Positions 15,588 through 35,573 of a stretch of 36,447 nucleotides of DNA are shown here, in pieces. The notes beneath the pieces were generated by a model. That model was not told the DNA's origin, ran no database searches, and was given only the letters and a program-made list of their open reading frames with translations. This DNA comes from Verrucomicrobiota bacterium (GTDB lineage Bacteria; Verrucomicrobiota; Verrucomicrobiia; Limisphaerales; AV2): positions 1 to 36,447 of the forward strand of contig QHNT01000279.1 of NCBI GenBank assembly GCA_003218515.1, written 5' to 3'. Position numbers and translations under genes: made by a program. The stretch's first letter is position 1. The number at the start of each line of letters is the position of its first letter.

Positions 15588-16508
15588 CTAGAAACTCAAA
15601 TGGCCCAATGCGAGGAGGCCGTAAAACGTGTACTCGCAATCCAAGTGCTCATCGCCCCAATGGCCGTGAAACGCGCCTTCGTTCGTCCAAAGCGTATCGA
15701 TGAAATCCAGGCATTTCTCCTTCACCTGCTCAAAGGAAACCTGCATCCCCGCCAGCGCGTGCAGTGCCGTCGCCGTTGAAAGCAGGTCGGGCATCGGCGC
15801 GTTTGGCGCGGCCAGAAAACCGCCCGCAGAGTGACAGCGCGCCAGCAGCCAGCCGCCGACGGATGGGTTCACCGGCAGGGACAGGTTTCGGAGGACGGTC
15901 ACGGCGGCAGCCGTCGCATTGGTCGAACCGACCTTTAATCGCTGAACAGCCGGAGCAACGGCAACGCGTTCGTTCGTCCACGCGCCATCTTCGGTCTCCA
16001 GAAATTTCAGACTTTGCGCCAGTCGCAATGGTTCCGGCACGGAGTCTTTCAAATCCTGATAGGCGCCCAGCGCGAGAAAACAACCGTAAGCCGTGCCGCA
16101 TTTCGCGCCTGTCACCGGACTGTACCCGCCGTCCTTGCTCCGAAACTGCTCAATGCGACGAAGAATTCTTTCCCGGAAATCGGCGACGCAGGAGTCCGTC
16201 GAACTCCGACCTGCAATCGCCGTCCACGCGCGGGCCAGGCAGCAGAGATGCACAAAATCCAAACCTTCTCCGCCGCCGAACGATTTCAGGTACGATGCAA
16301 TTCGCGCAACCGGGAGTTCCGCTTGCAACGCCAGCAAGCCATCCACTCCAAAAATCGTGTAGTAAAGGTCGCTGTTGCCCATGCGGTCTTTGAAGCCGCC
16401 ATCGTCGTTCTGCTGTCGGCGCAGAAAACTTGCGATCATTTCCGTGGATTCACCCAGAAGCTTCGGAGCCAGCCGCGCGACCTGCAGCATTTCGAGCCTG
16501 ATGCTCAC
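15588..16508 (-). CDS. Prenyltransferase/squalene-cyclase repeat protein
   Basis: The 306-residue product has alpha-toroid repeats with the QW-like signature Gln-Gln-Asn-Asp-Asp-Gly-Gly-Phe (about 33), Lys-Asp-Gly-Gly-Tyr (about 145) and Ser-Ala-Gly-Gly-Phe (about 228), ending with Cys-Glu-Tyr-Thr-Phe-Tyr. This is the fold of protein prenyltransferase beta subunits and triterpene cyclases. It lacks an evident Asp-Cys-Thr-Ala-Glu-type cyclase acid motif and is half the size of hopene cyclases. A polyprenyl-binding or modifying role fits its place 28 bases downstream of the polyprenyl synthetase gene. It starts with GTG at 16508; an ATG six codons inside is possible. It ends the minus-strand cluster. 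Confidence 0.7.
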   Translation of the reverse strand: MSIRLEMLQVARLAPKLLGESTEMIASFLRRQQNDDGGFKDRMGNSDLYYTIFGVDGLLALQAELPVARIASYLKSFGGGEGLDFVHLCCLARAWTAIAGRSSTDSCVADFRERILRRIEQFRSKDGGYSPVTGAKCGTAYGCFLALGAYQDLKDSVPEPLRLAQSLKFLETEDGAWTNERVAVAPAVQRLKVGSTNATAAAVTVLRNLSLPVNPSVGGWLLARCHSAGGFLAAPNAPMPDLLSTATALHALAGMQVSFEQVKEKCLDFIDTLWTNEGAFHGHWGDEHLDCEYTFYGLLALGHLSF

Positions 16509-16536: not shown

Positions 16537-18267
16537 CTAACCGGCCACTGAAACTTCAGTCAAACGATTGGCCGCGTTTTTCGCCTCAAACTCCCTGCAC
16601 CAGCCTTTGATTTCCGTGTCGTTGAAAATCTTGCCGATGACGCGGCGCAACAAGCCTTTCAAATTCGGATTTTCCACGTCACGCAAGCAACGGATCGCCT
16701 CCTCCTTGTAGGTTTCATACAACTGTCGCGCCCGCTCGTCGGCCTTCAACTCGGTGTAAAGAGCCTCGATTTGCTCGGGGTTGATGCCGACCTGGGGCGA
16801 GCGACACCAGACCGATTCAAGCTGCGCCTTCTGGTCGTTTTTGGCCTTTTCGTAGGCGACCGCGAGCAACAGGCTCGGCCGCAAGCCCGCAATGTCGTTC
16901 GTCTCGCCTTTGCTGCCAAGGTCGCTCAAGTCGTCGCGAATCTGATACGCGATGCCGAGCGCTTCGCTGTAATTCGCCAGCGCGTCCGCGACTTCCTCAT
17001 GTTGTTCAATTCCGGCGTAGAGCGCGCCGAGTCGAAGCGCCACTTCAAATGCCGGAGCCGTTTTCTTGCGGAAAATGTCGAGCACCTGGGTCTGTGTCAG
17101 CGGCCGTGGCGTGCGCGCCCAGCAAAGTTCCGCGCCTTGTCCGCGACAAAGCTGTCGCTGCCCTTGCGACGCGATCAGGAGCATTTCTGCTTTTTGCTCC
17201 GCCGACGCCCGGCACGCGCCGATGAGGCGATACCCTTCGCCGATGAGCAAATCGCCCACGTTCAACGCAACGGCAACGCCATGCTCTTCGTGCAACGTCT
17301 TTTCGCCGTAGCGCATGGCGTCGTTGTCCTCGATGTCATCGTGGATCAGCGACGCTTTGTGAAAACATTCCACCGCCAACGCCACTTTACGAATGTCCTC
17401 CGGCAACGGCGCGCCAGGGGCTTCGCGCAGGGCCTGGTACGCCGCCACGGTCAGGAAAGGACGCCACCGTTTGCCGGCGCGCGCCAGCCATTCGCGTGCG
17501 ATTTGTTCCGTTTCGCCCTCAATCGGGCCCATGATTTTTTCGAGCGAGTCGCCGGTGAACCAGGAATCCACTTCGTTGCGCACCGAAGCGAGGTCGAGCC
17601 GGCGCGTTTTGTCGTCGCTGGTAAGATGGATGTATTCCCAGATCCAGTCCAGGTCCACCGTCGTGTCAATGCAGTCGTCCTGCAGCAGCGGGATGGCCAC
17701 GCCGGGTATCGCCGCGGCTTCCATGTACGGAAATGCGCGCTCCAGAACGCTCAAGCAGCTCACGCCGACGATGGCCTCAATCTTCCCCGTCTGAATGAGG
17801 CTCATGACGATGGCGCTGCCTTCTGCAACGAGCACAGCGTAGCCGAGCTTTTCCGCTTCGGTCTGCAAATCCTGGATCGTGCACAGACCGCATTGCTTGC
17901 AGAGCAGACCGAACTCATCGAACGGCGCCGGGCATTTGCTCTCGACGCGCAGGCATTTCGGCAACAGCAACAGCCGGCGTTCGTAAGGAACGGAGGCGAG
18001 CGTCTCCCGCCACATTTCGTTGTTGATCAGCACGCCGATGTAATCGCAGTAAAGCGGGTCGCAGTTCAGCATCTTAACTACCAGTTCCGCGTGAACTTTG
18101 AGTTCTTCGACGGGCAAAGGCGGAACCGGACTGTGCTCCGCGACATAATTCCGCACCACTTGCAGGATGTGGTTTCGCTGGATCGGCGTCTGCGGGATGT
18201 TCTTCTTTGGCGGACGAAAGCGCTGCTGGACGATGTGACGCGGAATGACGAGAGGGGCAGTTTGCAT
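16537..18267 (-). CDS. DUF116 domain fused to a polyprenyl diphosphate synthase
   Basis: The 576-residue product (ATG 18267; a TTG start at 18309 would overlap the upstream gene) has two parts. Residues 65-225 match DUF116: Leu-Leu-Pro-Lys-Cys-Leu-Arg, then Cys-Pro-Ala, then Cys-Lys-Gln-Cys-Gly-Leu-Cys (C105, C112, C123, C126, C129) and later Cys171 and Cys199, a likely metal or Fe-S site. Residues 255-540 are a trans-isoprenyl diphosphate synthase with both Asp-rich motifs (Asp-Asp-Ile-Glu-Asp near 310 and Asp-Asp-Leu-Ser-Asp near 445), Gly-Lys-Arg-Trp-Arg-Pro and Lys-Lys-Thr-Ala. The enzyme would elongate allylic diphosphates with IPP in the cytoplasm. These synthases normally lack the N-terminal domain. 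It lies between the radical SAM and cyclase-repeat genes. Confidence 0.85.
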   Translation of the reverse strand: MQTAPLVIPRHIVQQRFRPPKKNIPQTPIQRNHILQVVRNYVAEHSPVPPLPVEELKVHAELVVKMLNCDPLYCDYIGVLINNEMWRETLASVPYERRLLLLPKCLRVESKCPAPFDEFGLLCKQCGLCTIQDLQTEAEKLGYAVLVAEGSAIVMSLIQTGKIEAIVGVSCLSVLERAFPYMEAAAIPGVAIPLLQDDCIDTTVDLDWIWEYIHLTSDDKTRRLDLASVRNEVDSWFTGDSLEKIMGPIEGETEQIAREWLARAGKRWRPFLTVAAYQALREAPGAPLPEDIRKVALAVECFHKASLIHDDIEDNDAMRYGEKTLHEEHGVAVALNVGDLLIGEGYRLIGACRASAEQKAEMLLIASQGQRQLCRGQGAELCWARTPRPLTQTQVLDIFRKKTAPAFEVALRLGALYAGIEQHEEVADALANYSEALGIAYQIRDDLSDLGSKGETNDIAGLRPSLLLAVAYEKAKNDQKAQLESVWCRSPQVGINPEQIEALYTELKADERARQLYETYKEEAIRCLRDVENPNLKGLLRRVIGKIFNDTEIKGWCREFEAKNAANRLTEVSVAG

Positions 18268-18298
18268 AATCAGTTTGTTCAGCGGTCCATTAAGCGCA

Positions 18299-19594
18299 TT
18301 ATGGCACAAAGACTTCGCCTCGAGCGCCAGTATTCGCTGTCACAAGCGCCGGAGCGAGCTTTGATTTCAATTCACGCGCCTTCGACGCAGCGTCGTGCCG
18401 GCCGTTTCGATACGCGCCGAAATCGCTGAACCAAAACCTTTTTGCCAATCGATACAACCAATGTTTCTCCGGCACTTCCTCGCCGGGCAGCCATTGGCTG
18501 AACCGCGGCTGCATCGTTTCCAGCTCTTCCATCGCCGTGCCGCGCGCGGTCGTGTCGCGCGCGCCGTGCTTGCGCACCAGTTCCTTCACCAAATCAGGTC
18601 GCTCCAGCACGACGCAGCCGCGTGTCGCCCGCGCCGAAAGCTCGCGGAAATCGCGCAGGTAAGCCGACTGCCGCATCGTCTCGAAGACGCCGCGCGAATC
18701 GCGAACGTTTTCGACGGCGAACTGGATAATGGGGCACGGCTCGATGTCGCCGCGCGGGCTGACGTGATGGCTGACGCCGGTGGCCATCGGACAAAGCGCC
18801 TGGCCGTCGTGGCCGTAGTAGGCGTCGATGATGGCGATGGGCATCTTCGCCCGCGCCTCGACCACGAACTTGCGGACGCGGACGAGCTGGTCAGGGCGCA
18901 AAGCAAGTTGCGGATTCATCTTCGGTCCGACTGGCCGGTAAGTGTGATACCAGACGTAGTGCACGCCGCGCTGGATGAGTTCCCGCAGCCATTGTTCGGT
19001 CAGCAACTCGTCCATATTCGACTGGCAGACGCTGGTGGCCACTCCGGTAAGAAGCCTGGCACGGAGACAATGTTCCAGCCCGCGCATCGTTTTGTCGAAC
19101 ACGTCCTTCTTGCCGCGGCGCTGATCACTCGTGATTTCACGGCCTTCGATGCTGACCAGGGGCGTGGCGTTGCCCAGTTCGCGCAGGCGGGCCGCAACCT
19201 TCTCCGTGATGAACTGGCCGTTGGTGAAAAGCTGAAAGTAACAGTCGCGGTGCGCGGCGAGCAGGTCGAGCAACTCCGGGTGCATGAACGGTTCGCCGCC
19301 GAGGATGCCGAAGAACACGTTCCCGTGCCGTTTGGCGTCAGTGATGGTGCGATTGAGCGTGTCCAGGTCGATGGCGTCCTTCTCCTCCACATCCACCCAG
19401 CAGCCCTGGCAACGGAGGTTGCACGAGTTGATGATGGAAAGGTAAAGGAACGGCGGGAAATACTCGCCGCGCTTGATGCGGCGCTTGAACTGCTCGACTG
19501 ACAACATCCCTTTCACGCCGAAGTTCCAGGCGAACTTGGCAATGCACCGTTTGTCGGCGGTGCGCAGTGTGCGGATGACGAGGGTTGGGAGCAT
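18299..19594 (-). CDS. Radical SAM enzyme with SPASM-like C-terminus
   Basis: The 431-residue product carries the 4Fe-4S/AdoMet motif Cys-x3-Cys-x2-Cys at C58, C62 and C65 in Ile-Asn-Ser-Cys-Asn-Leu-Arg-Cys-Gln-Gly-Cys-Trp. A Gly-Gly-Glu-Pro motif follows (about 102), and later Gly-Asp-Ile-Glu-Pro-Cys-Pro (about 285), typical of an auxiliary-cluster region. Such enzymes start radical reactions from AdoMet in the cytoplasm; the substrate is unknown. It resembles the HpnH-like and SPASM-type proteins that often sit near terpenoid genes. Its stop is 31 bases before the DUF116-polyprenyl synthetase ATG. A palindromic repeat separates it from the ferredoxin gene upstream. Confidence 0.8.
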   Translation of the reverse strand: MLPTLVIRTLRTADKRCIAKFAWNFGVKGMLSVEQFKRRIKRGEYFPPFLYLSIINSCNLRCQGCWVDVEEKDAIDLDTLNRTITDAKRHGNVFFGILGGEPFMHPELLDLLAAHRDCYFQLFTNGQFITEKVAARLRELGNATPLVSIEGREITSDQRRGKKDVFDKTMRGLEHCLRARLLTGVATSVCQSNMDELLTEQWLRELIQRGVHYVWYHTYRPVGPKMNPQLALRPDQLVRVRKFVVEARAKMPIAIIDAYYGHDGQALCPMATGVSHHVSPRGDIEPCPIIQFAVENVRDSRGVFETMRQSAYLRDFRELSARATRGCVVLERPDLVKELVRKHGARDTTARGTAMEELETMQPRFSQWLPGEEVPEKHWLYRLAKRFWFSDFGAYRNGRHDAASKARELKSKLAPALVTANTGARGEVFVP

Positions 19595-19951
19595 TACAGT
19601 TTAGCCGAAAATGGAACGAATCTTCCGGGGAACCTCAGTTAGTTTCTGTGGTTTGACTTTGTCACGAGTTTTTGAGAGCGGTGGCAAATAGCTGCGGAGC
19701 AGCGGTAGAAGGTAGCCCACGGCGTCAGCCGTGGGTTGCGGTATTGACAATCGGAGCCGCGAAGCGGCGAAAGACAATTCTCTTTGGCCGCAATTCTGTC
19801 GCCCCTGACGGGGCTTTTGGTGATGTGGCGTTTTTCCCCACGGCTCACGCCGTGGGCTACCCTCTTCCGCCACTCCGTGGCTGACGGCTCGCGCGCGTTT
19901 CGGATTTACGACCACGACGTTGACTTTGAACATACTCATGCACTACGCGGC
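19595..19951. other. Intergenic region holding a palindromic element
   Basis: The gap between the ferredoxin and radical SAM genes is largely taken up by the imperfect palindromic element described separately. The flanks (19595-19690 and 19884-19951) show no gene. Several open frames through the element exist only because it is GC-rich and symmetric. Confidence 0.55.
19691..19881. repeat. MITE/REPIN-like palindromic element with nested hairpins
   Basis: GGTAGCCCACGGCGTCAGCC and the next five bases (19711-19735) recur inverted at 19837-19861 with 24 of 25 bases matching. The outer 20-base flanks (19691-19710 and 19862-19881) match inverted at about 14 of 20. Each 25-base arm is itself a hairpin (CCCACGGC / GCCGTGGG). 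The interior holds two more small hairpins, GCCGC-GAA-GCGGC (about 19757-19770) and GCCCC-TGAC-GGGGC (19801-19814). There is no ORF for a transposase. This looks like a dispersed non-autonomous element. Confidence 0.75.
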
Positions 19952-20527
19952 TCAGGTGCCTGTTTGCTGTGCTGCCAACACCATCTGCGCCCTGGCCTTC
20001 GCTTCTTCAGCCCGCCGCGCAATTTCCTCCGACGACGGCAGACTCATCAACACTTCGGGCGGGATGTCTCCGGCACTGGCAAGCTTGACCAGGCACTTCT
20101 GCCGTTCCTGCAAAGCCTTGTCCGCGTCGCGTTCCTTCGAGAAGCGTGACTTCGCCTTCTCGCTGCGTTCACGCAGCATGGCGTAAACGTCACCACCCAG
20201 CAGGGCGCTGATGTCGATCTTCATTTTCTCGCGCTGCAAGTCGGCGTCGCTTACCACGTCGCCGTTGATCGGACCGGCCTTGTATTTGGGGAACATGATG
20301 GCGGCTTCGGGACAAACGCGCGAGCAGGCCGGGCAATTGGTTTTACAGTTGTCGTTGTTCTGGACCTGAATGCGCTGCTGCTCGTCCACGCCGTACACGC
20401 CGAACAGGCAGAAACTCAGGCACTGCATGCAATTGGTGCAGCGGTCGTAGTCGATGACCGGGAACCACGGCTTCCAATCGCCGTGCTTCGCGGCGTTGGT
20501 TTCGGCCCGGACTGTTTCAACCGTCAC
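19952..20527 (-). CDS. Two-cluster 4Fe-4S ferredoxin-type protein
   Basis: The 191-residue product has two Cys motifs: C30-x2-C33-x2-C36-x3-C40 and C61-x3-C65-x2-C68-x3-C72-Pro. They sit in the context Trp-Phe-Pro-Val-Ile-Asp-Tyr-Asp-Arg-Cys-Thr-Asn-Cys, the 2[4Fe-4S] electron-carrier fold. The C-terminal 90 residues are Lys/Glu/Arg-rich, predicted helical, and unlike free ferredoxins; they may bind a partner. It is cytoplasmic and probably passes electrons to the radical SAM or other Fe-S proteins of the cluster. The start at 20527 overlaps the preceding 42-codon gene by 11 bases, implying coupled translation, or that both derive from one longer gene. Confidence 0.75.
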   Translation of the reverse strand: MTVETVRAETNAAKHGDWKPWFPVIDYDRCTNCMQCLSFCLFGVYGVDEQQRIQVQNNDNCKTNCPACSRVCPEAAIMFPKYKAGPINGDVVSDADLQREKMKIDISALLGGDVYAMLRERSEKAKSRFSKERDADKALQERQKCLVKLASAGDIPPEVLMSLPSSEEIARRAEEAKARAQMVLAAQQTGT

Positions 20528-20645
20528 GGCGATCCGATTCGAGCAGCGCGGTCATCGCCGTGAAGCGGTCGGCCGCTTCGAGCGCCTGCGCGTCGCTGCC
20601 TTCGTAGAGCACGACGCGAAGAGTGCTTTGGTCTTTAAGGCTCAT
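20517..20645 (-). CDS. 42-aa peptide between propeller and ferredoxin genes
   Basis: The ATG at 20643-20645 overlaps the stop of the propeller gene in an ATGA quartet, and the stop overlaps the ferredoxin start by 11 bases. The product begins Met-Ser-Leu-Lys-Asp-Gln-Ser-Thr-Leu-Arg-Val-Val-Leu-Tyr-Glu-Gly, a single beta-strand start followed by a helix rich in Ala and Leu. That looks like the first strand and helix of a larger alpha/beta domain. It may be the truncated N-terminal part of a longer ferredoxin protein, separated by a deletion. A separate function is not excluded. Confidence 0.5.
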   Translation of the reverse strand: MSLKDQSTLRVVLYEGSDAQALEAADRFTAMTALLESDRRDG

Positions 20646-21877
20646 TCAATCGTCAACATTGTCACGGTGTCCTTGTCCTTGACGAAAACTCTGTTCCCGG
20701 CGATCACCGGGTGTGCGTAGGTAGGCGTCTCAGCGATTTTGATCCGGGCCACTTCCGCGTATTCCTTGTCGCTGGGCTTAAAGGCGATCAATTCGGATTT
20801 TGGGGCCAAGGCCAGGAGAACCGAGCCCGCGTCGAGAATGGAGCCGAACCCCTTGTTGTCTTGCTGGGTTGTATCCGCCCAGGCCGACTGACCGGTCCGT
20901 GCGTTCAGGCAGAAGAAATTGCCGCGGCCGGACAGGCCAAAGAGCAGGCCGTCTTTCAGCACGGGGCTGTTGAACTGTGTGGCGAGTTCAGCGTTGCTCC
21001 AGAGCTCAGTGGCGGCGAAACCATCACCCTGTTTCTCGATCTTCACGGCCTTGGTACCGCGACCCGACCCAGTAAAGATCACCGTTTGCCCGTCCACGAT
21101 CGCTGTCGCCGCGTTGTAGGTCATTCCTTGTGGCAGGAATGGGATCTGCCACAATCGCTTCCCGTCAGCCACACCGATGCCGACGACGCTTTTCTCCGTT
21201 AGGGTCACAATCTGTTTTGAGGCTCCCACCGTCAGCAGGACGGGCGAGGCGTACGCCGGGGCTTCTTCGGCCCATTTCCACTTCTGGTCGCCGGTGGCCA
21301 GCTCGAACGCGATGAGCGCGCCGTTGCCCTGTCCGCCAAGATGCGCGATGGCCATCCCGTCCACAATGATCGGCGACATCGCGGTGTGGAACCGGGGCGC
21401 GACCCTGGGGAACTCGTCTTTGCGCCAAACAACTTTGCCGGTGGCGGCGTCCAGACAGGAAAGAATCCCGCCAACGCCCAGTGTGACAATCTTTCCATCC
21501 GCAACGGCAGGGGAGCTTCTAGGTCCAGGATGCTGCGATCCGTCCGGTCCGCTCACGGACTGCGCCGCGTACTTGTCCCGCCACAATTCCTTTCCGCTGA
21601 CTGCGTCCAGGCACAAGGTAACTTCATCCGTATCCTGCCGCGTAAAGACGTAAAGCTTGTCGCCCACCAGAGCGGGAGTAGCATCACCCAAGCCCACGTT
21701 TGCTCTCCACTGCTGAGCGAGTTCCCGCGGCCAGGTCTGGGGCGCTTTGAACCCGGTCACCTTCCCGTCCCGATGGGGCCCGCGCCATTGTGGCCAATCT
21801 TGGGCGAAAATGCAGCCCGCACTAAACAGCGTCACACAGTTCAAAATGGCGCCGATCGATCGATTGGTATTTTTCAT
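20642..21877 (-). CDS. Secreted PQQ-type beta-propeller protein (411 aa)
   Basis: Starting from ATG 21877, the product has a signal peptide ending near Phe-Ala-Gln (residue 26), then Asp-Trp-Pro-Gln-Trp-Arg-Gly-Pro, the hallmark opening of Planctomycetes/Verrucomicrobia secreted PQQ-like propellers. Repeats with Ala-x-Thr-Gly-Lys-x-x-Trp blades follow (for example Asp-Ala-Ala-Thr-Gly-Lys-Val-Val-Trp). The quinoprotein-dehydrogenase catalytic residues are not evident, so it is more likely a binding propeller (BamB-like) than an enzyme. It lies outside the cytoplasm, which is odd for a cluster of cytoplasmic redox genes. It ends in an ATGA overlap with the 42-aa gene. A longer upstream start would precede the signal peptide. 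Confidence 0.8.
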   Translation of the reverse strand: MKNTNRSIGAILNCVTLFSAGCIFAQDWPQWRGPHRDGKVTGFKAPQTWPRELAQQWRANVGLGDATPALVGDKLYVFTRQDTDEVTLCLDAVSGKELWRDKYAAQSVSGPDGSQHPGPRSSPAVADGKIVTLGVGGILSCLDAATGKVVWRKDEFPRVAPRFHTAMSPIIVDGMAIAHLGGQGNGALIAFELATGDQKWKWAEEAPAYASPVLLTVGASKQIVTLTEKSVVGIGVADGKRLWQIPFLPQGMTYNAATAIVDGQTVIFTGSGRGTKAVKIEKQGDGFAATELWSNAELATQFNSPVLKDGLLFGLSGRGNFFCLNARTGQSAWADTTQQDNKGFGSILDAGSVLLALAPKSELIAFKPSDKEYAEVARIKIAETPTYAHPVIAGNRVFVKDKDTVTMLTIE

Positions 21878-21932
21878 GGCATTGCTACAAAATTGCGAGT
21901 GGATTTGTTCTTCCAAGAAATGAAATGCCGGT

Positions 21933-22340
21933 TCACGCGGCCACCTCGCTCTTCGGCAACTCAACAGCACTCGGCTTCGTCGCTTTGCCAGTGGGCAGAT
22001 TCGGTTGGAGTTCTGCGCTGAACAAAGCGTTGGCGACTTCATCGGCACTTTGCACGCGCATGTTGAGAATCTCCGCCGCCTCTATCGGCAACGGCGCTTT
22101 CGCCGCGTGGAAGAGCCATTTCACCGCGCGCGGGTAGCAGGCCGCGATTTTCACCGGGCCGCCATCGGCGAGCCGTTTCAAGGCCGGGTCCTGCCGGGCG
22201 CTCATTTCACACAAGTCCGCCACAGCATCGAACGCCAGGCCGGACTCGCAAAGTTTCTTCAGCACCGCTTCCTTCACTTCTTTTGGCACGACCTGAGCGT
22301 AGGTGCAGTTGCAATACAGGATGCGCGGCGGCGTCGTCAT
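21933..22340 (-). CDS. Small Cys-rich HdrA-like protein
   Basis: The 135-residue product has Ile-Leu-Tyr-Cys-Asn-Cys (C10, C12), Cys31, Ala-Asp-Leu-Cys-Glu-Met (C44) and Ile-Ala-Ala-Cys-Tyr-Pro-Arg (C68). The spacing and the Ala-Ala-Cys-x-Pro-Arg motif resemble the N-terminal domain of heterodisulfide reductase subunit HdrA, where such cysteines bind an Fe-S cluster. The flavin domain of HdrA is absent. It is presumably a cytoplasmic thiol or Fe-S relay for the cluster. The C-terminal 30 residues are Pro/Lys-rich and disordered-looking. ATG 22340 is preferred, with GGCGGA upstream; a TTG at 22397 is possible. It lies 67 bases after the CobW gene. Confidence 0.55.
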   Translation of the reverse strand: MTTPPRILYCNCTYAQVVPKEVKEAVLKKLCESGLAFDAVADLCEMSARQDPALKRLADGGPVKIAACYPRAVKWLFHAAKAPLPIEAAEILNMRVQSADEVANALFSAELQPNLPTGKATKPSAVELPKSEVAA

Positions 22341-22407
22341 GATTTGTCCGCCCAGTCTAACATCGTTTCGTTTGGCTGCAACGTGTGCTTTTGGCAAGCC
22401 GGACTCA

Positions 22408-23565
22408 TCACATCGGCGCGGTAATCCGATGTGTCGGTTGCGGTTTGCCGGGGCGAAAATGCTCTAAATGTTCCAGTTTCGCTTTCAAGCCAGGGAAACA
22501 TCCGGCCAAACCCCCTACGGCGCTCTGCACCGCATCTCGCAGGATTTCCGGCGCCGACTGGGCGCGCAGGTTGATGATGAGCTGGCCGCTTTCCACGGGA
22601 TGTTCCAGGGCTTGTGACACTTCAGGGACGTAATCGTTACGCACCAGGTTAATGACCGCGATGTCCCCTAAACCTCCCTCCGGGCTGAAGGTCATTTTCA
22701 GATGGGCCACCTCCGCGTCAGCGCTCCGAAGGCGCTCCTGAATTGCGCCGGCCAATCGTTCGAGCACGGCGTTCGCGTCGAAGGCCTTTCTGTCTTCCAG
22801 TCGCACCGTGCAATTCAACCAGCCGAGCAACGCTTCGCCCACGGCGTAAAGTTCGTAATCCACTTCCATCGTCGCGCGGGCAGTCTGTTCGGCGGCAGTG
22901 ATGCGGTCAAACCACGAGCCCAAGCCGGCGCCTGACCGCGCGGACACCTCAAAAATCTCCGCACGCGGGAATTGAGCCGCCAGCTCGCCGCGGAGCGTGG
23001 GCCGCTTCGACGCGTCGAGCACATCGCACTTGTTGATGACGATGATGTCCGCTTCTTCCAGTTGCTTGCGGTAGATGTAGAGCACCTTCTCGGAAAACTT
23101 GCCTCCTTCCTCCAATCCGAAGATGCGCAGCGCGCGAATCGGGTCCACCAGCACGCTCAATGGCGCGATAAAAAAATTGTCGCCATAAATCCGGCGCAGC
23201 GGATACGTGACCGTCGCCACCAGGTCGGTGCAACTGCCGACCGGCTCGGCGATGAACACATCGGGACGCGTGGCGGCGGTCAGCTTGTTCGCTGCGTCCA
23301 CGAGCGAATTGAACCGGCAACAAAAACAGCCGCCCGGAATTTCTTCCGTAGCGAACCCGCGCGAGCGCAACATCGCTGTATCGACCAGTTCGCTCCCCTG
23401 GTCGTTCGTGATCAGGCCGACGCGCAGCCCTTGCTTCGTCAGCCTTTCTGCGAGTCTGACCACGGAGGTGGTCTTTCCCGCGCCAAGAAAGCCCCCGATC
23501 ATGAGGTAGCGAGCCTTTGGCAAACTCGGAACTCGGAACTCGGAACTCGGAACGTTCGGGCTCAT
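22408..23565 (-). CDS. CobW/HypB/UreG-type GTPase
   Basis: The 385-residue product has a Walker A motif Gly-Gly-Phe-Leu-Gly-Ala-Gly-Lys-Thr-Thr (about 24-33), the metal-binding Gly-Gly-Cys-Phe-Cys-Cys (C80, C82, C83) of COG0523 proteins, and the guanine-specificity motif Asn-Lys-Cys-Asp (about 178). COG0523 GTPases deliver metals such as Zn or Co to client enzymes. The C-terminal half differs from standard CobW C-terminal domains. The first 18 residues (Pro-Ser-Ser-Glu-Phe-Arg-Val-Pro) are encoded by a 7-bp repeat array and are probably not functional; Met22 is the likely ancestral start. It overlaps the end of the GcvH-like gene by four bases. The client may be a protein of this cluster. Confidence 0.8.
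   Translation of the reverse strand: MSPNVPSSEFRVPSLPKARYLMIGGFLGAGKTTSVVRLAERLTKQGLRVGLITNDQGSELVDTAMLRSRGFATEEIPGGCFCCRFNSLVDAANKLTAATRPDVFIAEPVGSCTDLVATVTYPLRRIYGDNFFIAPLSVLVDPIRALRIFGLEEGGKFSEKVLYIYRKQLEEADIIVINKCDVLDASKRPTLRGELAAQFPRAEIFEVSARSGAGLGSWFDRITAAEQTARATMEVDYELYAVGEALLGWLNCTVRLEDRKAFDANAVLERLAGAIQERLRSADAEVAHLKMTFSPEGGLGDIAVINLVRNDYVPEVSQALEHPVESGQLIINLRAQSAPEILRDAVQSAVGGLAGCFPGLKAKLEHLEHFRPGKPQPTHRITAPM
23523..23553. repeat. Heptanucleotide array inside the CobW-type gene start
   Basis: Four full copies of AACTCGG plus a partial fifth, in tandem without spacer. On the coding strand it reads CCGAGTT and encodes Pro-Ser-Ser-Glu-Phe-Arg-Val in the first 15 codons of the GTPase gene. 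Confidence 0.85.
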
Positions 23566-24035
23566 TTGATTTCCTCAGACTTCTGCTTTTCCAGGATTTT
23601 GTCGATGGTCTTGTCCAGGATCGCGCGGTAACCATGGACGTCCACGCATTTGGTGTCCGGTTTTCCTTTTACCATATAAAGCCACCCTTGGCCATAAGGG
23701 TCTTTGTTCACCAGCGTAATTTTTTCTTTCAGGAGTGGATTGGGGCCGGCGAACTGCCCCTCGGCGATGCAAAAGAGGTCGGAAATGGCCTTGAACCCTT
23801 CGATCCACCCGACGATCTGGCCCGGCTGGACCGGCGCACCCGGTTCGATTTCAAACCCGTGGCCCACCATATCGCCCAGAATCCGCACGGCGAACTTGGT
23901 GAACCCGACACGACACAAATCGTCCTCCTGCCGCGCAATCCAGCCATGCGACGGGCTGTAAAGATAATCCACCGGCAAGAGCGTCACGAACCGTGAGCGT
24001 TTGTAGTGTAGGGTTTTCGGTATCCGTGTTTCCAT
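23562..24035 (-). CDS. GcvH-like lipoyl carrier protein
   Basis: The 157-residue product matches glycine-cleavage H protein. It has the Ser-His-Gly-Trp-Ile start of the fold (about 29-33), Val-Gly-Phe-Thr-Lys-Phe-Ala, Leu-Gly-Asp-Met-Val, a lipoylation site Glu-Gly-Phe-Lys-Ala-Ile-Ser-Asp with Lys82, and Val-Asn-Lys-Asp-Pro-Tyr-Gly-Gln-Gly-Trp-Leu. H proteins carry intermediates on lipoamide in the cytoplasm. No GcvP or GcvT is nearby, so it is probably a carrier for another redox pathway. It has an extra N-terminal 20 residues and a Cys next to the lipoyl loop (Leu-Phe-Cys). It is first in the minus-strand cluster and overlaps the CobW gene in an ATGA. Confidence 0.8.
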   Translation of the reverse strand: METRIPKTLHYKRSRFVTLLPVDYLYSPSHGWIARQEDDLCRVGFTKFAVRILGDMVGHGFEIEPGAPVQPGQIVGWIEGFKAISDLFCIAEGQFAGPNPLLKEKITLVNKDPYGQGWLYMVKGKPDTKCVDVHGYRAILDKTIDKILEKQKSEEIK

Positions 24036-24115: not shown

Positions 24116-24328
24116 ATGGATAGAACGGTGATGAAAGTCGTGGGACGACGCAGGCGTGCCAGAGTGGACGTAGAGACGTTCGACGTGATGCAGAAAACGG
24201 TTAACGTGATGCGCGCAGGTCGCGGTCTCGTGCCCAAGGGAGTATTCCGGTTCAAATCTTTTGGTGAGGCCGACACATGGTTGATCAGAATGATGGCGGT
24301 GAACTCGTCTCGCGCATCCCGACGCTAG
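24116..24328 (+). CDS. Small basic protein, possible antitoxin-like partner
   Basis: The 70-residue product is rich in Arg and Val at the N-terminus and contains Gly-Leu-Val-Pro-Lys-Gly-Val-Phe-Arg-Phe-Lys-Ser-Phe and Glu-Ala-Asp-Thr-Trp. I recall that motif from small proteins encoded upstream of nucleotidyltransferases in Verrucomicrobia. It overlaps the nucleotidyltransferase gene by 52 bases, so the two are co-expressed. Pairs of this kind sometimes act as toxin-antitoxin modules (MNT-like), but that is inference. The start at 24116 has GAGCAGG eight bases upstream; GTG 24107 is an alternative. Confidence 0.5.
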   Translation: MDRTVMKVVGRRRRARVDVETFDVMQKTVNVMRAGRGLVPKGVFRFKSFGEADTWLIRMMAVNSSRASRR

Positions 24329-24783
24329 ACGACCTGCTGTTTCTTTGTCGCAAGCTCAACGAGGCCGGCGCGAGATACGTCGTCATTGGTGGATGGGCCG
24401 TCATCCAGCACGGCTTTGGAAGGACGACCCAAGATATCGACCTGTTGGTGGATTCCTCGCCAGACAATTTCGAACGCATCAGGACAGCGATGCTTGCGCT
24501 GCCGGACGGCGCCATCCGCGAAGTCAAGGCAACCGATTTGGATGAATTTGTTGTCGTCAGGATCGCAGACGAAGTGCTTGTTGATCTCATGAAGCGGGCC
24601 TGTGGCGTGGAGTATGCGGAAGCTTCCAAAGACGTCTGTCTGACTGAAGTTCGAGGCGTTGCTATTCCTTTCGCGAAGCCGAAGCTGCTCTTGCGGCTGA
24701 AACAAACCCATCGGGAAAAGGACGCCGAGGATCGCTTATTCCTGCAACGGCTGATTTACGAGCAGGAGAAACGCCAAGGATGA
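24277..24783 (+). CDS. Nucleotidyltransferase-fold protein (AbiEii/MNT-like)
   Basis: The 168-residue product has the polymerase-beta-type nucleotidyltransferase signature Gly-Gly-Trp-Ala-Val, then Arg-Thr-Thr-Gln-Asp-Ile-Asp-Leu-Leu-Val-Asp (about 41-60) with the Asp-x-Asp metal pair. Downstream it has Asp-Glu-Val-Leu-Val-Asp-Leu carrying a third acid and a Lys/Arg-rich helical tail. Family members NMP-modify tRNA or partner proteins in toxin-antitoxin pairs, or act in resistance. It is cytoplasmic. Its stop overlaps the cysteine desulfurase start in an ATGA, and its own start lies inside the small basic gene, so all three probably form one operon. Confidence 0.65.
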   Translation: MVDQNDGGELVSRIPTLDDLLFLCRKLNEAGARYVVIGGWAVIQHGFGRTTQDIDLLVDSSPDNFERIRTAMLALPDGAIREVKATDLDEFVVVRIADEVLVDLMKRACGVEYAEASKDVCLTEVRGVAIPFAKPKLLLRLKQTHREKDAEDRLFLQRLIYEQEKRQG

Positions 24784-25919
24784 TCTACTTCGACCACAAC
24801 GCAACAACGCCGATGTTGCCGGAAGCGCGGCAGGCCTGGTTGGATGCGAGCGAGAAGTTCATCGGCAATCCCTCCAGCCCCCACCGCGTCGGCAGTCGCG
24901 CGGACGCGGCGATCACCGAGGCGCGTCAGCGGTTGGCGGAATTTCTCGGTTGCGACCCGTTGGATATCGTCTGGACTTCCGGCGCGACGGAAGCCAACAA
25001 CACGGTACTCCATCATTTCGCGCGCGCGCTCCCGTTGGATACTGAGGTTTGGGTCTCAGCCATCGAACATCCCTGTGTGATGGCTTCCACGAAACACTAC
25101 TTTCCGAAACGTCACCGGCTGATTCCGGTCACGCGCGGCGGTTCCGTTGACTTGAATTGGTTGACAGAAGAAATCGCTCACGCGCGTCCGGGGCTGGTGG
25201 CGATCATGGCCGCGAACAACGAGACCGGCGTGCTCCAGCCCTGGCGCGAGGCGCTGGCAATTTGCCGTCAATGGGACGTTCCGTTTTTCTGCGACGCCGC
25301 GCAGTGGATTGGCAAACTTCCGGCCAGTGGATTGGCAGAATGCGATTTTGTCAGCGGCGCGGCACACAAATTCGGCGGGCCGAAAGGCGTTGGTTTCTTG
25401 AAGTGCCCGGCGAAAGGGCGGATTGAACCGCTGTTGCGAGGCGGGCCGCAGGAAGAAGGACGACGGGCCGGCACGGAGAACGTCGCCGGAATCCTTGCGA
25501 TGATGGCCGCGCTCGATGCGCGCGAAGCGTTGTTGAGCACGGACGAAGCCGAGAAGCGCGTCGAATGGCGCAAGGCTTTCGAAAAACGGATGGTGTTGGA
25601 TTTGCCCCGCTCAGAGGTCGTTGGCGCCGGACAGGAACGTTTGTGGAACACCGTTTCCGCGTTGATGCCCGAAGCAGACTCCCAGCAACGCTGGGTCGTA
25701 AAGCTCGACAAGCTGGGTTTTGCCGTTTCCACCGGCTCGGCGTGTTCCAGCGGCAAGGAGGAGCCATCCCATGTCATCGCAGCGATGGGGTATCCGCCGC
25801 GAGAAGCGGGTCGCGTCCTGCGCTTCAGCAGTGGATGGGAAACGACCGAGGAAGAATGGAGCGCGTTACTTGAAGGCTTAATGAAGGTTCACCACGGAAT
25901 GACCAGGGGCCGGAAGTAG
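24780..25919 (+). CDS. IscS/NifS-type cysteine desulfurase
   Basis: The 379-residue product is a fold-type I PLP enzyme that removes sulfur from cysteine as a persulfide for Fe-S clusters, lipoate or tRNA thiolation. Visible features are Tyr-Phe-Asp-His-Asn-Ala-Thr-Thr at the start, Thr-Ser-Gly-Ala-Thr-Glu-Ala-Asn (about 66), the PLP lysine in Ala-Ala-His-Lys-Phe (Lys197) and the persulfide Cys in Thr-Gly-Ser-Ala-Cys-Ser-Ser-Gly (Cys332). IscS is about 404 aa; this is slightly shorter. It is encoded divergently from the ferredoxin, radical SAM and lipoyl-carrier cluster, for which it could supply sulfur (inference). No IscU or Suf genes are present. Confidence 0.85.
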   Translation: MIYFDHNATTPMLPEARQAWLDASEKFIGNPSSPHRVGSRADAAITEARQRLAEFLGCDPLDIVWTSGATEANNTVLHHFARALPLDTEVWVSAIEHPCVMASTKHYFPKRHRLIPVTRGGSVDLNWLTEEIAHARPGLVAIMAANNETGVLQPWREALAICRQWDVPFFCDAAQWIGKLPASGLAECDFVSGAAHKFGGPKGVGFLKCPAKGRIEPLLRGGPQEEGRRAGTENVAGILAMMAALDAREALLSTDEAEKRVEWRKAFEKRMVLDLPRSEVVGAGQERLWNTVSALMPEADSQQRWVVKLDKLGFAVSTGSACSSGKEEPSHVIAAMGYPPREAGRVLRFSSGWETTEEEWSALLEGLMKVHHGMTRGRK

Positions 25920-25933
25920 GTCTTCTCGCCCGC

Positions 25934-27202
25934 CTACCCTCGATCTCCATCGCCGCGCGGCTCAAAGGCGGCAGCGTATAAATCCTCAAAATCGTCCACG
26001 CCGATTGGACGCGGATTGAAACCCGCGGTCCATTGTTTGGCTGCTTCTTCAGCCATGACCTTTGTCTTCGAGCGCTTCACCCCGAGGTCGGCGAGCGAGC
26101 GGGCGATTTGGGCAGCGTTCAAGAGCGATTCCAATCGCGCGACGAGCGCCGCCACTGCGGCATCCAAACCGTCGCTCACACAAGCGATTTCCGGCGCGGA
26201 CGCCAGTTCCGCATAAGCCCGCTTCGCCGGAGCGTCCTTCGCGTTGAAGCGCACGACGTGCGGTAACAGGATTCCCACCGCTTCACCATGCACAATACCG
26301 TAATGCGCCGTGAGCGGATTGGCCGCGGCGTGGGCGGCGCCCAGCATGCTGTTCTCAATGGCCGTTCCCGCAAACGCGGCGCCCAGCAACATTCGTCCGC
26401 GCGCTTCGATGTCCTTCGGATTGCTCAAGACCCGCGGAAGACTCGGCACCGTCAGTTTGAACGACTCGTGCGAAAACATCATCGACAGATTGTTGCGCCT
26501 CTTCGTCACCGCCGTTTCGACCGCGTGAGCGATGGCATCGACACCGGTGTGCGCCGTGACCAACGGCGGCTGCGATACCGTCAACGCAGGGTCCAAAATG
26601 GCGATGCGCGCGGCGGCCCTGGGATCGAGGCACGCCATTTTCTGGTGTGTCTGCTCATCAGCAATGAGCGCTGCGGATTGACATTCGCTTCCGGTACCCG
26701 CCGTCGTCGGAATGGCGATAAACGGCAGCATCGGCAGGCTGGTTTTGCCCACTCCCCAGTAGTCCTGCACCCGCCCGCCGTTGGTCAGAAGAAAATTGCA
26801 ACCTTTTGCCGTGTCCATGCTGCTGCCGCCGCCGAGGCCAACGATCGTGTCGATGCCGGCAGCTTTCGCAACTTCAAGGCATTTGTCCACGTCGCGCGTG
26901 GTGGGATTCTCATGCACTTCGGCAAAAACGACCACGCCGAGTCCGCACGATTGAAGAATGTGTTCAACGCGGTCCACGTGTCCGGCGGTGACGATGCCCG
27001 GGTCCGTGACGACCAGAACGATTTTCGCGCCAAGCTCTCGCGCCAACTCGCCGACGCGTGCCACACTGTTCAGACCAAAAACGATCCGCGTCCGTGGTTG
27101 GTAATCAAACAAGGGAAGAAGGGAGGCGGCACCCGCGTCTTGCGCGCGGGGTTGGGCTTCACGCCCGACTCGGTCTCTGATTTTCCCGGATACTTTGCTC
27201 AT
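25934..27202 (-). CDS. Iron-containing alcohol dehydrogenase
   Basis: From ATG 27202 the 422-residue product matches the Fe-ADH family (group III). It has Gly-Leu-Gly-Gly-Gly-Ser-Ser-Met-Asp-Thr-Ala-Lys for NAD(P) binding, Pro-Thr-Thr-Ala-Gly-Thr-Gly-Ser-Glu, and metal-ligand motifs His-Ala-Val-Glu, Gly-Ala-Ala-His and His-Tyr-Gly-Ile-Val-His-Gly-Glu. It reduces aldehydes to alcohols or the reverse in the cytoplasm. It lies 55 bases downstream of the ligase gene on the same strand, so the two are probably co-transcribed. Upstream in-frame starts overlap the ligase end and add no conserved residues. Confidence 0.85.
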   Translation of the reverse strand: MSKVSGKIRDRVGREAQPRAQDAGAASLLPLFDYQPRTRIVFGLNSVARVGELARELGAKIVLVVTDPGIVTAGHVDRVEHILQSCGLGVVVFAEVHENPTTRDVDKCLEVAKAAGIDTIVGLGGGSSMDTAKGCNFLLTNGGRVQDYWGVGKTSLPMLPFIAIPTTAGTGSECQSAALIADEQTHQKMACLDPRAAARIAILDPALTVSQPPLVTAHTGVDAIAHAVETAVTKRRNNLSMMFSHESFKLTVPSLPRVLSNPKDIEARGRMLLGAAFAGTAIENSMLGAAHAAANPLTAHYGIVHGEAVGILLPHVVRFNAKDAPAKRAYAELASAPEIACVSDGLDAAVAALVARLESLLNAAQIARSLADLGVKRSKTKVMAEEAAKQWTAGFNPRPIGVDDFEDLYAAAFEPRGDGDRG

Positions 27203-27257
27203 TCGTTTCGCTCCCAGTTTGTTGGCATGACTGCCGTGGGATTGCAAGTGGCCAGGG

Positions 27258-28331
27258 CTAGTAAACCCCTTCCACAATTTGCTTCTCCATCGCGCCGAAG
27301 GGCCGGACTTCAGCGACGCCGTCCCAGGCGTAAGGCGCGCGCGGTTCCCGGCGGATAGCCTCGTCGCGTTCCAGGAAGCGCGGCATGAAGAATTCCTTCG
27401 TCAACGTGGTCAGCTCGACGCGGCCCCACGCGTCGTACTTCACCAGTTGGTCGGTCTTGTTCGGCTCCACCACGCGGAGCACGGCGCGCGGTTGCGGGGC
27501 GTAGTAGGTGATGGTGAAATTGTCCTCGGGCCGTAACGGCACGCTGGCCGCGAGGCCCATCAAGGTGTTCCCGTAAGTCGGATAAAAGCCGATGCGGCCT
27601 TCCAAAACTTCTTCGACGATGAAGCGGACGTATTGCGGGGCCATGGTCGTGCCACCGCAGAACACGCCGCGAATACCGGCCTCCCACAAATTGATTTTCT
27701 CGGCCAGCGCCTCCAGCAGTTTCGGTGTGGTGAAAAGGCCGCTGACTTTGCGATGTTTCAAAATCGTGACCGCCTGGTCCACGACATGTTCCAGGTAGGC
27801 CTTCGCCTGGTCGGCTTTTTTCTCCCCGATGACTTTCTTCACCCAGCGCGGGTCGAGATCAACGAAGTAGCACGAGCTGCCGCGGAAGTTGGCGAGGTGC
27901 TCGATGGCGAGGCGCAGGCGGCGCGGACCGGTCGGGCCAACCATCAGCCAGGCGCCGCCGCGCGGGAAATGTTCGTCGGAAACTTTGCCGGAGAATTCCT
28001 CGTAATCGACCTTATAGTCGTCCCAACCGATGCGCTGCTTGGGCATGCCCGTGGTGCCGCCGGTCTCGAACACGTTGAAGGGCCGGCCTTTGAATTTTGC
28101 CGGCACCCAGACTTCCGGTTGCAGGTCGCGCAACGACTCGTCCGGGAAATGAGGGAACTTTAGCACGTCAGCGAAGCTTTTGATTTCCTTGCGGGGATCA
28201 AAGTTTTTCTTCGCCCAGTCGAGCCAGAACGGGCAGCCGGTCTCCGGTGAAAAATGCCACTGGACGATTTCGCGCAGGTGGGCGTCGAGTTTTTCCTGCG
28301 CGGCTTTGATGGCGGCCTGGTCAACAGACAT
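27258..28331 (-). CDS. Adenylate-forming ligase (phenylacetate-CoA-ligase/LuxE-like)
   Basis: The 357-residue product carries the ATP-binding loop Phe-Glu-Thr-Gly-Gly-Thr-Thr-Gly-Met-Pro-Lys (about 87-97), a Cys-Gly-Gly-Thr-Thr-Met-Ala strand near 229 and Tyr-Pro-Thr-Tyr-Gly-Asn-Thr near 252. This is the acyl-adenylate core, shorter than full CoA ligases (430-650 aa) and close in size to LuxE acyl-protein synthetases. It would activate a carboxylic acid as acyl-AMP. Followed by Fe-ADH, and with an ALDH-fold protein at 9727 that lacks the hydrolytic Glu, it could feed acid-to-alcohol reduction (inference). The substrate is unknown. Confidence 0.7.
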   Translation of the reverse strand: MSVDQAAIKAAQEKLDAHLREIVQWHFSPETGCPFWLDWAKKNFDPRKEIKSFADVLKFPHFPDESLRDLQPEVWVPAKFKGRPFNVFETGGTTGMPKQRIGWDDYKVDYEEFSGKVSDEHFPRGGAWLMVGPTGPRRLRLAIEHLANFRGSSCYFVDLDPRWVKKVIGEKKADQAKAYLEHVVDQAVTILKHRKVSGLFTTPKLLEALAEKINLWEAGIRGVFCGGTTMAPQYVRFIVEEVLEGRIGFYPTYGNTLMGLAASVPLRPEDNFTITYYAPQPRAVLRVVEPNKTDQLVKYDAWGRVELTTLTKEFFMPRFLERDEAIRREPRAPYAWDGVAEVRPFGAMEKQIVEGVY

Positions 28332-28333
28332 AA

Positions 28334-28375
28334 ATCAATTTTCGATTTAAGATTTGCGATTGTCGATTTTGATTT
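28334..28375. repeat. Degenerate heptanucleotide array upstream of the ligase gene
   Basis: Six 7-bp units of the form NNNGATT, with some decay (ATCAATT, TTCGATT, TAAGATT, TGCGATT, GTCGATT, TTGATTT), run directly in front of the ligase start codon. This places the repeat in the 5' leader or promoter of the ligase/Fe-ADH operon. Confidence 0.65.
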
Positions 28376-28485
28376 GGGGTTTTTTACCGGGTTGCCGATG
28401 AACACAGCCCTGGCGACAAGGAGATGGAGCGTTCCGTCTGATGATCCCAAAATGAGTTTAAGGCAACGCTCGCCCTCACCCCTGA

Positions 28486-28512
28486 CCCCTCTCCCATCCG
28501 ATGGGAGAGGGG
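28486..28512. terminator. Perfect 12-bp hairpin, terminator-like or dispersed repeat
   Basis: CCCCTCTCCCAT and ATGGGAGAGGGG form a perfect 12-bp stem around the loop CCG. No T-tract follows on either strand, so it may be a dispersed palindrome rather than a terminator. It lies downstream of the propeller gene ending at 28621 and upstream of the ligase gene. The rest of 28376-28620 shows no gene. Confidence 0.5.
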
Positions 28513-28620
28513 AACCGCAGGAGAGGGAGAAACAATCTCGGTCTCTTTGCCATTCTCACGCTCTCTGGTGTGGCTCAGGCCCATGGGACTCACCAGGTCG
28601 GCTCGAGCCAGGCGGTTCCG

Positions 28621-30405
28621 CTATTTTTTTTCACCGAGTCCTTTCGGGTTCACGTCCACTTTAGGCTGGTCGCTGCTCGGCGCGTGGCGCGCGGCGTCGT
28701 GAATCGCGTAGAGATGCGCGTTGCTCGCGACGTAGATGACGCCGTTGGCCACGACCGGCGTGGAATAAACCGGCGATCCGAGATTCGGGCCGTCCTCTTC
28801 CTTGCCGGCGATCAGCATCTTGCTCAGGATTTGCTTTTCCTTGCGGGCAGCCAGGACCACGAAGTCGCCGTCTTCGTCTCCGCAATAGACCTTACCGTCG
28901 GCGACCAGCGTCGAGCCCCACATGTGCGCCTTCATGTCGTGCGTCCAGTAAAGTTTCCCCGTCTCGGCGTCGAAGCAATGGACGAAGCCGGAGAAATCGC
29001 CGACGAACAGCAGACCCGTGTTCGGATCAATCGAGACCGTCGAGATGCTGCGGTGGATTTTGTCGTAGCTCCAGATTTTGCCGGTCTGCGTGATATCGCC
29101 GGTCCTGGTCGCGTCGATGCAGGTCAGGATGCCGACGCCTTCACCGTGCTCGGGGTCCTGACCAACGGCGACGTAAACGCGGTTCTTATAGAAGACCGGT
29201 GTCGCGTTGATTTCACTGACGCCTTCTGCCGCGGGGTACTTGAATTTCTTCCGCTCCGGCGGGTTGCAATCGTATTTCCAGGCAACCTTGAGGTAGGTCG
29301 AGTCTGTTCCCTTTACCGGCTTCGCGTCGAAGGCGTAGCAGTAGCCGTCGCCGCCGCCGAAGAAAACCAGTTTCCTGCCGTTCACCACGCCCATCGACGG
29401 CGAGCTCCATTGACCATGGAAAATGTGCGGACCGATGTGAGCGTCGTCCTCGGCGACGAATTCACCGGTCTTCTTATTGAGCGCGATGAAGCTGGGTGAG
29501 TTGGGCGACGGAATGTTCACGTGCGACCAGTCCTGTCCGTTGGAAGTGCAAGCGTAAACCAGGTCGTCCACAATGAGCACGGAACAGTTCGACGCGTTGT
29601 GCGGGAAGACTCCCAGTTCGTCCATCATGTTATAGACCCAAATGATGTCGGCGTCGTGAGAGCCGATTTTCGCCTTCGGTTTGCCAGGGCCGACGACGTA
29701 TTGCGCCTCGTCTTTGAACGGGCCGTCGTTACCGTTGGCCATGCCTTCGGTGTCGAGACAAATCACTTCACAGCGGCTGGTCACGAGATAAACGCGGTTG
29801 CCTTCCACGCACGGCGAGGAAAGCAAGCCGAGTCCCTCCCAGTCATTGACTTTGCCGGACGCCAGCTTGGGAACGACGAGTTGCCAGAGAAATTCGCCGG
29901 TCTTCTCGTCCAAACACAGCAGGATGCTGCGGTCGCCCTCATGTTGCGGATCGCGTGGATTTTCGTTGTTCGTTCCGATGAAAACCTTGCCGCCGGCGAC
30001 AACAACGTTGCCGTAAGCCTGCGAACCGAGCTTGGCTACCCACTTGACGTTTTTGGTGGCCTGCATGTCGATGTCCTCAGTGCCGGATTTGGGTTTGCCG
30101 GGGTCGAAGCGGTCGGGCAACCCTTTGGCGGGCGAATACATATTGCGTCCAGGGTCGTTGCCGCCCCAACGCGGCCAGTCCTGGGCGGGCATCGCGGGGC
30201 AGATTAAGATTAAAAGGAAGATTAAGAGAGGGGCGGCCGTGTTCTTAATCTTACTCGTAATCTTCGAAGTCGAGGCGCGGTCTAGTTGGCCGTGAACGGA
30301 GAGCTTCGAAGGAACGCGCTGCAGGATGTCGGTCGTCCAAGTGATGAATTTTAACGAGCGATGGTAAACGTTTAATTTCTCATGATCGAAACGGATGGTT
30401 TTCAT
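28621..30405 (-). CDS. PQQ-type beta-propeller protein with a chimeric N-terminus
   Basis: The 594-residue product has a secretion-like hydrophobic segment (about 60-72, Pro-Leu-Leu-Ile-Phe-Leu-Leu-Ile-Leu) ending at Met-Pro-Ala-Gln, then Asp-Trp-Pro-Arg-Trp-Gly-Gly-Asn and seven or eight propeller blades with Ala-Glu-Thr-Gly-Lys-Leu-Tyr-Trp signatures. It is likely an extracytoplasmic binding or quinoprotein-like propeller. The first 47 residues (Phe-Asp-His-Glu-Lys-Leu-Asn-Val-Tyr, then Gln-Leu-Asp-Arg-Ala-Ser-Thr-Ser) are instead the start of a four-helix-bundle 23S-rRNA intervening-sequence protein. No other ATG lies before the secretion segment, so the original start seems to have been replaced, and export may be impaired. 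Confidence 0.75.
   Translation of the reverse strand: MKTIRFDHEKLNVYHRSLKFITWTTDILQRVPSKLSVHGQLDRASTSKITSKIKNTAAPLLIFLLILICPAMPAQDWPRWGGNDPGRNMYSPAKGLPDRFDPGKPKSGTEDIDMQATKNVKWVAKLGSQAYGNVVVAGGKVFIGTNNENPRDPQHEGDRSILLCLDEKTGEFLWQLVVPKLASGKVNDWEGLGLLSSPCVEGNRVYLVTSRCEVICLDTEGMANGNDGPFKDEAQYVVGPGKPKAKIGSHDADIIWVYNMMDELGVFPHNASNCSVLIVDDLVYACTSNGQDWSHVNIPSPNSPSFIALNKKTGEFVAEDDAHIGPHIFHGQWSSPSMGVVNGRKLVFFGGGDGYCYAFDAKPVKGTDSTYLKVAWKYDCNPPERKKFKYPAAEGVSEINATPVFYKNRVYVAVGQDPEHGEGVGILTCIDATRTGDITQTGKIWSYDKIHRSISTVSIDPNTGLLFVGDFSGFVHCFDAETGKLYWTHDMKAHMWGSTLVADGKVYCGDEDGDFVVLAARKEKQILSKMLIAGKEEDGPNLGSPVYSTPVVANGVIYVASNAHLYAIHDAARHAPSSDQPKVDVNPKGLGEKK
30190..30265. repeat. AATCTT/AAGATT inverted repeat at the chimera junction
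   Basis: AAGATTAAGA near 30219-30228 faces TCTTAATCTT near 30243-30252, a 10-bp stem. Further AGATTA units lie at 30207-30215, and AATCTTCG at 30259-30266. The tract encodes the Ile/Leu-rich signal segment of the propeller gene. Confidence 0.55.
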
Positions 30406-35572: not shown

Positions 35573-35573
35573 T

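Follow-up and report, generated by a model that had tools for sequence, protein, structure and literature searches.

The minus strand of contig QHNT01000279.1, a 36,447-nucleotide stretch from a Verrucomicrobiota bacterium (assembly GCA_003218515.1) that we call the window, carries a run of genes around a fusion of a DUF116 domain with a polyprenyl diphosphate synthase (PPS). We find that this run is a genuine cluster, beyond chance neighbourhood: its gene order and catalytic motifs are conserved, and at least the fusion, a radical SAM enzyme (rSAM), a GcvH-like carrier (GcvHL) and a divergent cyclase (cyc2) co-occur genome-wide. The sequences lead us to favour, with moderate confidence, one co-inherited pathway to a cyclised isoprenoid (terpenoid) lipid, apart from the ordinary hopanoid route. 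That the pathway is terpenoid is likely, because the additional co-occurring gene, cyc2, appears to encode a class II terpenoid cyclase. An earlier note on this DNA had proposed a single radical-isoprenoid pathway with a dedicated electron supply. The conserved order, the co-occurrence and cyc2 strengthen that proposal, while the part played by lipoamide and the individual redox roles are still inferred.

The source genome comprises 5.9 Mb in 490 contigs, with a completeness of 87%, and the window is one of these contigs (C294). We checked gene calls and families by open reading frames (ORFs) and by Pfam and NCBIfam profile searches of the window proteins, and found on the minus strand all of the genes that the note had named. 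Its list lacked a ninth member, the SHC-like (squalene-hopene cyclase-like) class II cyclase cyc2, which lies outside the window, on contig C417 of the source genome (locus L238, 2146-4605).

Conservation across genomes

The fusion gene occurs in 50 of the 97 genomes of the order and in 52 of 289 genomes sampled across the phylum. Loci that carry it include Chthoniobacter flavus Ellin428 as well as metagenome-assembled genomes (MAGs) labelled Planctomycetota and Acidobacteriota, the spread beyond Verrucomicrobiota being judged from the 80 best named loci. The order IscS/GcvHL-CobW-HdrL-Fer-rSAM-fusion-cyc(-cyc2), in which HdrL is a small HdrA-like protein, Fer a ferredoxin and cyc a cyclase-repeat protein, is kept across Verrucomicrobiota and is also present in loci labelled Acidobacteriota (L208, L211 and L213) and Planctomycetota (L197, L205 and L209); other families have a shorter core, Fer-rSAM-fusion-cyc-cyc2. 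Among 77 nonredundant loci with full flanks, 60 have at least one partner near the fusion gene, nearly always on the same strand (rSAM in 52, Fer in 49, HdrL in 47, cyc in 47 and cyc2 in 33).

Where the fusion gene has no partner nearby, rSAM lies elsewhere, often beside GcvHL, CobW, HdrL and Fer: it was found in 20 of 21 such fusion-positive genomes and in none of 21 fusion-negative ones. GcvHL is present in 21 of 25 fusion-positive genomes against none of 15 fusion-negative relatives. Both cyc2 and the fusion are present in 44 genomes, the fusion only in 6, cyc2 only in 5 and neither in 42 (Fisher p=2e-15, which, because the genomes are related, is not a strict probability). The pieces are scattered in some genomes, as a chance neighbourhood of unrelated genes might have them, but this explanation is contradicted by an order conserved across phyla and by co-occurrence even when the genes are unlinked, and we give it almost no credence. 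Independent scattering of the orthologues, which the earlier note had named as evidence to the contrary, was not seen.

Several MAGs labelled Akkermansia muciniphila or Proteobacteria (L136, L139, L141, L142, L144, L146 and L147) carry a Pedosphaera-like locus, and their labels look wrong. Some short-core clusters (L097 1532-6603, L079 3-5604 and L096) are joined to NapG/NapH-like polyferredoxins and to NHL and pyrroloquinoline quinone (PQQ) propellers, and also to an FtsX/ABC (ATP-binding cassette) transporter and a glycosyltransferase. This company hints, as a lead only, at a product located at or beyond the inner membrane.

Isoprenoid enzymes and the hopanoid and quinone alternatives

The fusion gene (16537-18267, minus strand; PF01976 5e-37, PF00348 1e-45) has a reading frame open to a TTG at 18309, and the conserved region suggests the ATG at 18267 as its start. 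In the PPS half, which matches solved geranylgeranyl diphosphate and long-chain synthases, both Asp-rich motifs are invariant. The second Arg of the RRG motif, which we take to be a ligand of isopentenyl diphosphate (IPP), is replaced by Tyr (RYG) in nearly all fusion members, so that chain elongation by this half is uncertain; the GK stretch, with the lysine after the second Asp motif, is missing by comparison with 1wy0. For the DUF116 domain the confidence of the AlphaFold2 (AF2) model is low, and the best Foldseek matches cover the PPS half only. A search of the fusion protein against plasmids gave no match, and we found no description of DUF116, of this gene combination or of SHC in Verrucomicrobia in the open-licence PMC literature.

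In most loci, the window included (15588-16508, minus strand), the gene that immediately follows the fusion is cyc, which encodes a 306-aa alpha/alpha-toroid protein of the Prenyltrans/SQHop family (PF00432 2e-11). The earlier note had placed this gene after the cluster; the gene is there, but it is a member of the cluster. The protein has weak matches to cyclases and to RabGGTase/FTase beta subunits, and its conserved residues are D47, D241, D290 and E292. It lacks a DxDD motif. Compared with the Zn ligands Asp, Cys and His of protein prenyltransferase beta subunits, Asp241 is invariant, whereas the Cys and His positions appear to be Leu and Tyr, and the complete Zn triad thus seems to be lacking.

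Unsupervised clustering of the neighbouring ORFs yielded cyc2, a protein of about 620 aa whose gene follows cyc in 39 loci. This protein is a member of the squalene-hopene cyclase superfamily (PF13243/PF13249), with an intact DxDD motif (DADD aligned to the DVDD of SHC) and the His of (D/E)xTAH conserved at the SHC-equivalent position. Its members fall far under the cut-offs of TIGR01507 and TIGR01787 (at most 110 against 431 bits and at most 143 against 323, respectively). On C417 the cyc2 frame is 819 aa long, apparently enlarged by in-frame repeat-like insertions in the form of proline/arginine-rich stretches, and enlarged frames (722-944 aa) also occur in several other genomes of the order.

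These SHC motifs would fit a variant hopanoid pathway, in which cyc2 serves as a second squalene-hopene cyclase, with squalene as its substrate, and rSAM tailors the hopanoid in the manner of HpnH, a radical SAM enzyme that acts on hopene. Squalene should be available, the squalene/phytoene synthase family being present in 94 of the 97 genomes of the order. The source genome, however, has a separate SHC fragment with HpnD (on C327) and an HpnH of its own, which scores 358 bits over its frame against TIGR03470 (cut-off 225), where the cluster rSAM reaches only 42.5. HpnH occurs in 82 of the 97 genomes, whether the cluster is present or not, and cyc2 lies well below the hopene-cyclase cut-off (431 bits). 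We therefore consider a variant hopanoid pathway unlikely. Given the squalene-type synthases, the distribution of HpnH and the genes on C327, ordinary hopanoids are probably made by separate genes, with cyc2 an extra cyclase. Hopanoid tailoring by HpnH was rejected as the whole explanation in view of the separate hpn genes, and replacement of squalene synthase under anaerobic conditions was rejected because the synthase family is there regardless of the cluster.

The cluster and the hpn pathway do share a class II fold with DxDD and His, and a radical SAM enzyme in a triterpenoid context. They differ in the low score of cyc2, in an rSAM that is not HpnH, in the separate location of the genuine hpn genes and in the addition of DUF116-PPS, cyc, HdrL-Fer, GcvHL and CobW. 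The Bacillus sesquarterpene route (HepS/T, tetraprenyl-beta-curcumene synthase and SqhC) pairs a polyprenyl diphosphate enzyme with an SHC-like cyclase, and so does the cluster; unlike that route, the cluster showed no tetraprenyl-beta-curcumene synthase-like gene, and it includes rSAM, ferredoxin and lipoyl genes.

Divergent from cyc2 and a gene for a DCC1-like thiol oxidoreductase on C417 is an operon of type III polyketide synthase (PKS), methyltransferase and flavin adenine dinucleotide (FAD) oxidoreductase (L238 5265-8647). The same operon stands beside cyc2 in the same-genus genome G004 but, among the loci inspected, only in this genus, and the type III PKS was thus rejected as a constant partner.

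An isoprenoid with a polyketide or aromatic head, that is, a terpenoid quinone or meroterpenoid serving as a redox lipid, would suit the operon found in these two genomes and the polyferredoxins, propellers and ABC exporter that flank short-core clusters. Against it stand the confinement of the operon to one genus and the fact that no aromatic prenyltransferase was seen, and we judge a product of this kind quite improbable.

Radical SAM, lipoyl and electron-transfer genes

In the rSAM protein (18299-19594, minus strand; PF04055 4e-14) the residues C58, C62 and C65 of the CxxxCxxC motif are invariant, as are C268, G282, C287 and C327. The latter form a Twitch-type pattern, C268-x13-G282-x4-C287...C327, which agrees with the C-x9-15-G-x4-C plus downstream Cys of Twitch/SPASM enzymes. 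The nearest solved structures are SkfB and BlsE, which have both motifs in common with the cluster enzyme; it differs from them in its low sequence similarity and in having no peptide or nucleoside context.

GcvHL (23562-24035, minus strand; PF01597 6e-19) is a lipoyl-type carrier whose Lys82, in EGFKAxSD, is conserved in at least 95% of 28 nonredundant homologues. It shares its fold and its conserved Lys with the glycine cleavage H protein, but scores below the NCBIfam gcvH equivalog cut-offs (70.8-77.5 bits against 115.9-117) and has no gcvP or gcvT partner at the locus. In our tree GcvHL (35 rows) and GcvH (30 rows) form separate clades with 100/100 support, setting the Lys82 protein apart from true GcvH as the earlier note had envisaged. 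True GcvH, unlike GcvHL, occurs in nearly all relatives, and in the source genome it is found together with GcvT on C370; the note's statement that glycine-cleavage partners are missing thus holds for the locus but not for the genome. Both the tree and the gene context led us to reject a role in glycine cleavage as well as a degenerate gcv operon.

The neighbouring gene encodes a CobW/COG0523 G3E GTPase (22408-23565, minus strand; PF02492 4e-23), whose P-loop GGFLGAGKTT and GGCFCC motif (CxCC, C80-x-C82-C83) are conserved among homologues. Of the three close overlaps previously taken as signs of coupling, the four bases shared by GcvHL and CobW (23562-23565, ATGA) stand, whereas those at 20642-20645 and 20517-20527 bound the broken N-terminus of the ferredoxin gene. 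A class-V aminotransferase of cysteine desulfurase (IscS/NifS) type (24780-25919, plus strand; PF00266 7e-52) does diverge from the cluster, as had been noted, and is separated from it by a small DUF2204 nucleotidyltransferase gene (24277-24783). Class-V aminotransferases lie near the cluster in 16 of the 77 full-flank loci, often divergent or upstream.

HdrL (21933-22340, minus strand) matches no Pfam or NCBIfam family, and we describe it as HdrA-N-domain-like from conservation, its AF2 model and structural matches. Its four Cys (29, 31, 63 and 87, in the numbering of the listed ORF) are conserved, and the AF2 model has a pLDDT (predicted local distance difference test) of 91. The HdrA structures 7bkd, 5odc and 5odh are among its Foldseek matches, all weak and none significant (E 0.04-0.13), and its profile matches HdrA in the PDB solely through its ferredoxin part. 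HdrL and Fer are one fused protein in L079, L095, L101, L113 and L213, which supports a direct interaction between the two.

Fer itself (19952-20527, minus strand) is a 2x[4Fe-4S] ferredoxin (C30, C33, C36, C40 and C61, C65, C68, C72) that is truncated at its N-terminus in the window. In dozens of relatives the ferredoxin gene begins with a match to a 42-aa ORF of the window (20517-20645, minus strand), which is the cut-off N-terminus. Alignment to L114, from the same-genus genome G004, and to L116 shows that the window lacks 167 bp, a deletion by which the gene is frameshifted and the N-terminal domain lost.

Between HdrL and Fer the window has a secreted PQQ/BamB-type beta-propeller with a signal peptide (20642-21880, minus strand; PF13360 1e-31), which the earlier note had counted as part of the cluster. 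Three genomes of the same genus have no propeller at this place: HdrL and Fer lie near each other there, and the full N-terminal spacing is kept. We therefore rejected the propeller as a core member, and it is probably accessory. In distant families, 11 loci have similar propellers, for which we claim no orthology to that of the window, immediately upstream of Fer.

The sHdr-LbpA sulfur oxidation system combines a GcvH-like carrier with an HdrA-like protein (PMC6067878), as the cluster does. With a ferredoxin and a cysteine desulfurase also at hand, the locus might be read as sHdr-like or other lipoate-dependent sulfur metabolism, to which the isoprenoid genes are mere neighbours. The cluster differs in having neither the hdrC1B1AhypC2B2-type core nor dedicated lipoate ligases, and an sHdr system was rejected on these grounds. 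No CCG-domain (HdrB) protein lies near it (the source genome has only two, of about 450-480 aa), which agrees with the earlier remark that the core subunits are missing; no dedicated lipoate ligase stands beside the carrier, and the only two proteins of the BPL/LplA/LipB family in the genome are both on other contigs. The most constant core, moreover, is Fer-rSAM-fusion-cyc-cyc2. Sulfur metabolism of this sort is very improbable as the function of the cluster.

Proposed pathway and neighbouring genes

In a pathway to a cyclised isoprenoid lipid, DUF116-PPS would make or bind an allylic polyprenyl diphosphate, and rSAM would functionalise this compound or its product. The HdrL-ferredoxin unit could feed low-potential electrons to rSAM, and a lipoyl-GcvHL shuttle might also supply it, in an electron or sulfur role. 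The cysteine desulfurase and CobW would maintain the clusters or metals of rSAM, and SHC-like cyc2 would cyclise the chain, with cyc as a putative prenyl-binding partner. A more specific version, which we put forward only tentatively, is a new isoprenoid lipid class in at least three phyla: rSAM, served by a lipoyl/HdrA-like/ferredoxin relay of its own for electrons or sulfur, would act on a polyprenyl diphosphate by C-C coupling, C-H functionalisation or sulfur insertion, and class II cyclisation would follow.

Several points weigh against a single isoprenoid pathway. The co-occurrence tests drew on related genomes, which are not phylogenetically independent. GcvHL and CobW may be accessory, because short-core loci have neither nearby. 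The PPS domain, without its presumed IPP-binding Arg, may not be a chain-elongating synthase. Finally, the broken ferredoxin gene may mean that the pathway is decaying in the source MAG, or may be an assembly error.

If the pathway is real, widespread soil and freshwater bacteria, most of them uncultured, produce a terpenoid lipid unexplained by known pathways, and radical chemistry on isoprenoids extends beyond hopanoid tailoring. It would also give functions to bacterial DUF116, an orphan GcvH-like clade and a divergent cyclase family, and provide source genes for unexplained biomarker lipids. Because the carriers include at least one named strain in culture, Chthoniobacter flavus Ellin428, the pathway is testable.

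Elsewhere in the window, an Fe-alcohol dehydrogenase, a PaaK/AMP-ligase-like gene and two secreted PQQ propellers form one run (25934-32777), and L156 and L162 carry relatives of the PaaK-like and propeller genes on the downstream side of cyc. By eye, a 726-aa ORF (3793-5973) resembles a BadF/GlcNAc-kinase-type domain fused to a MurQ-type etherase. Two proteins at 33443-35644, also judged by eye, are built of a repeating Cys-rich zinc-ribbon unit (WWxCxxxHEW...CPxC), one of the proteins with a possible endonuclease-like middle.

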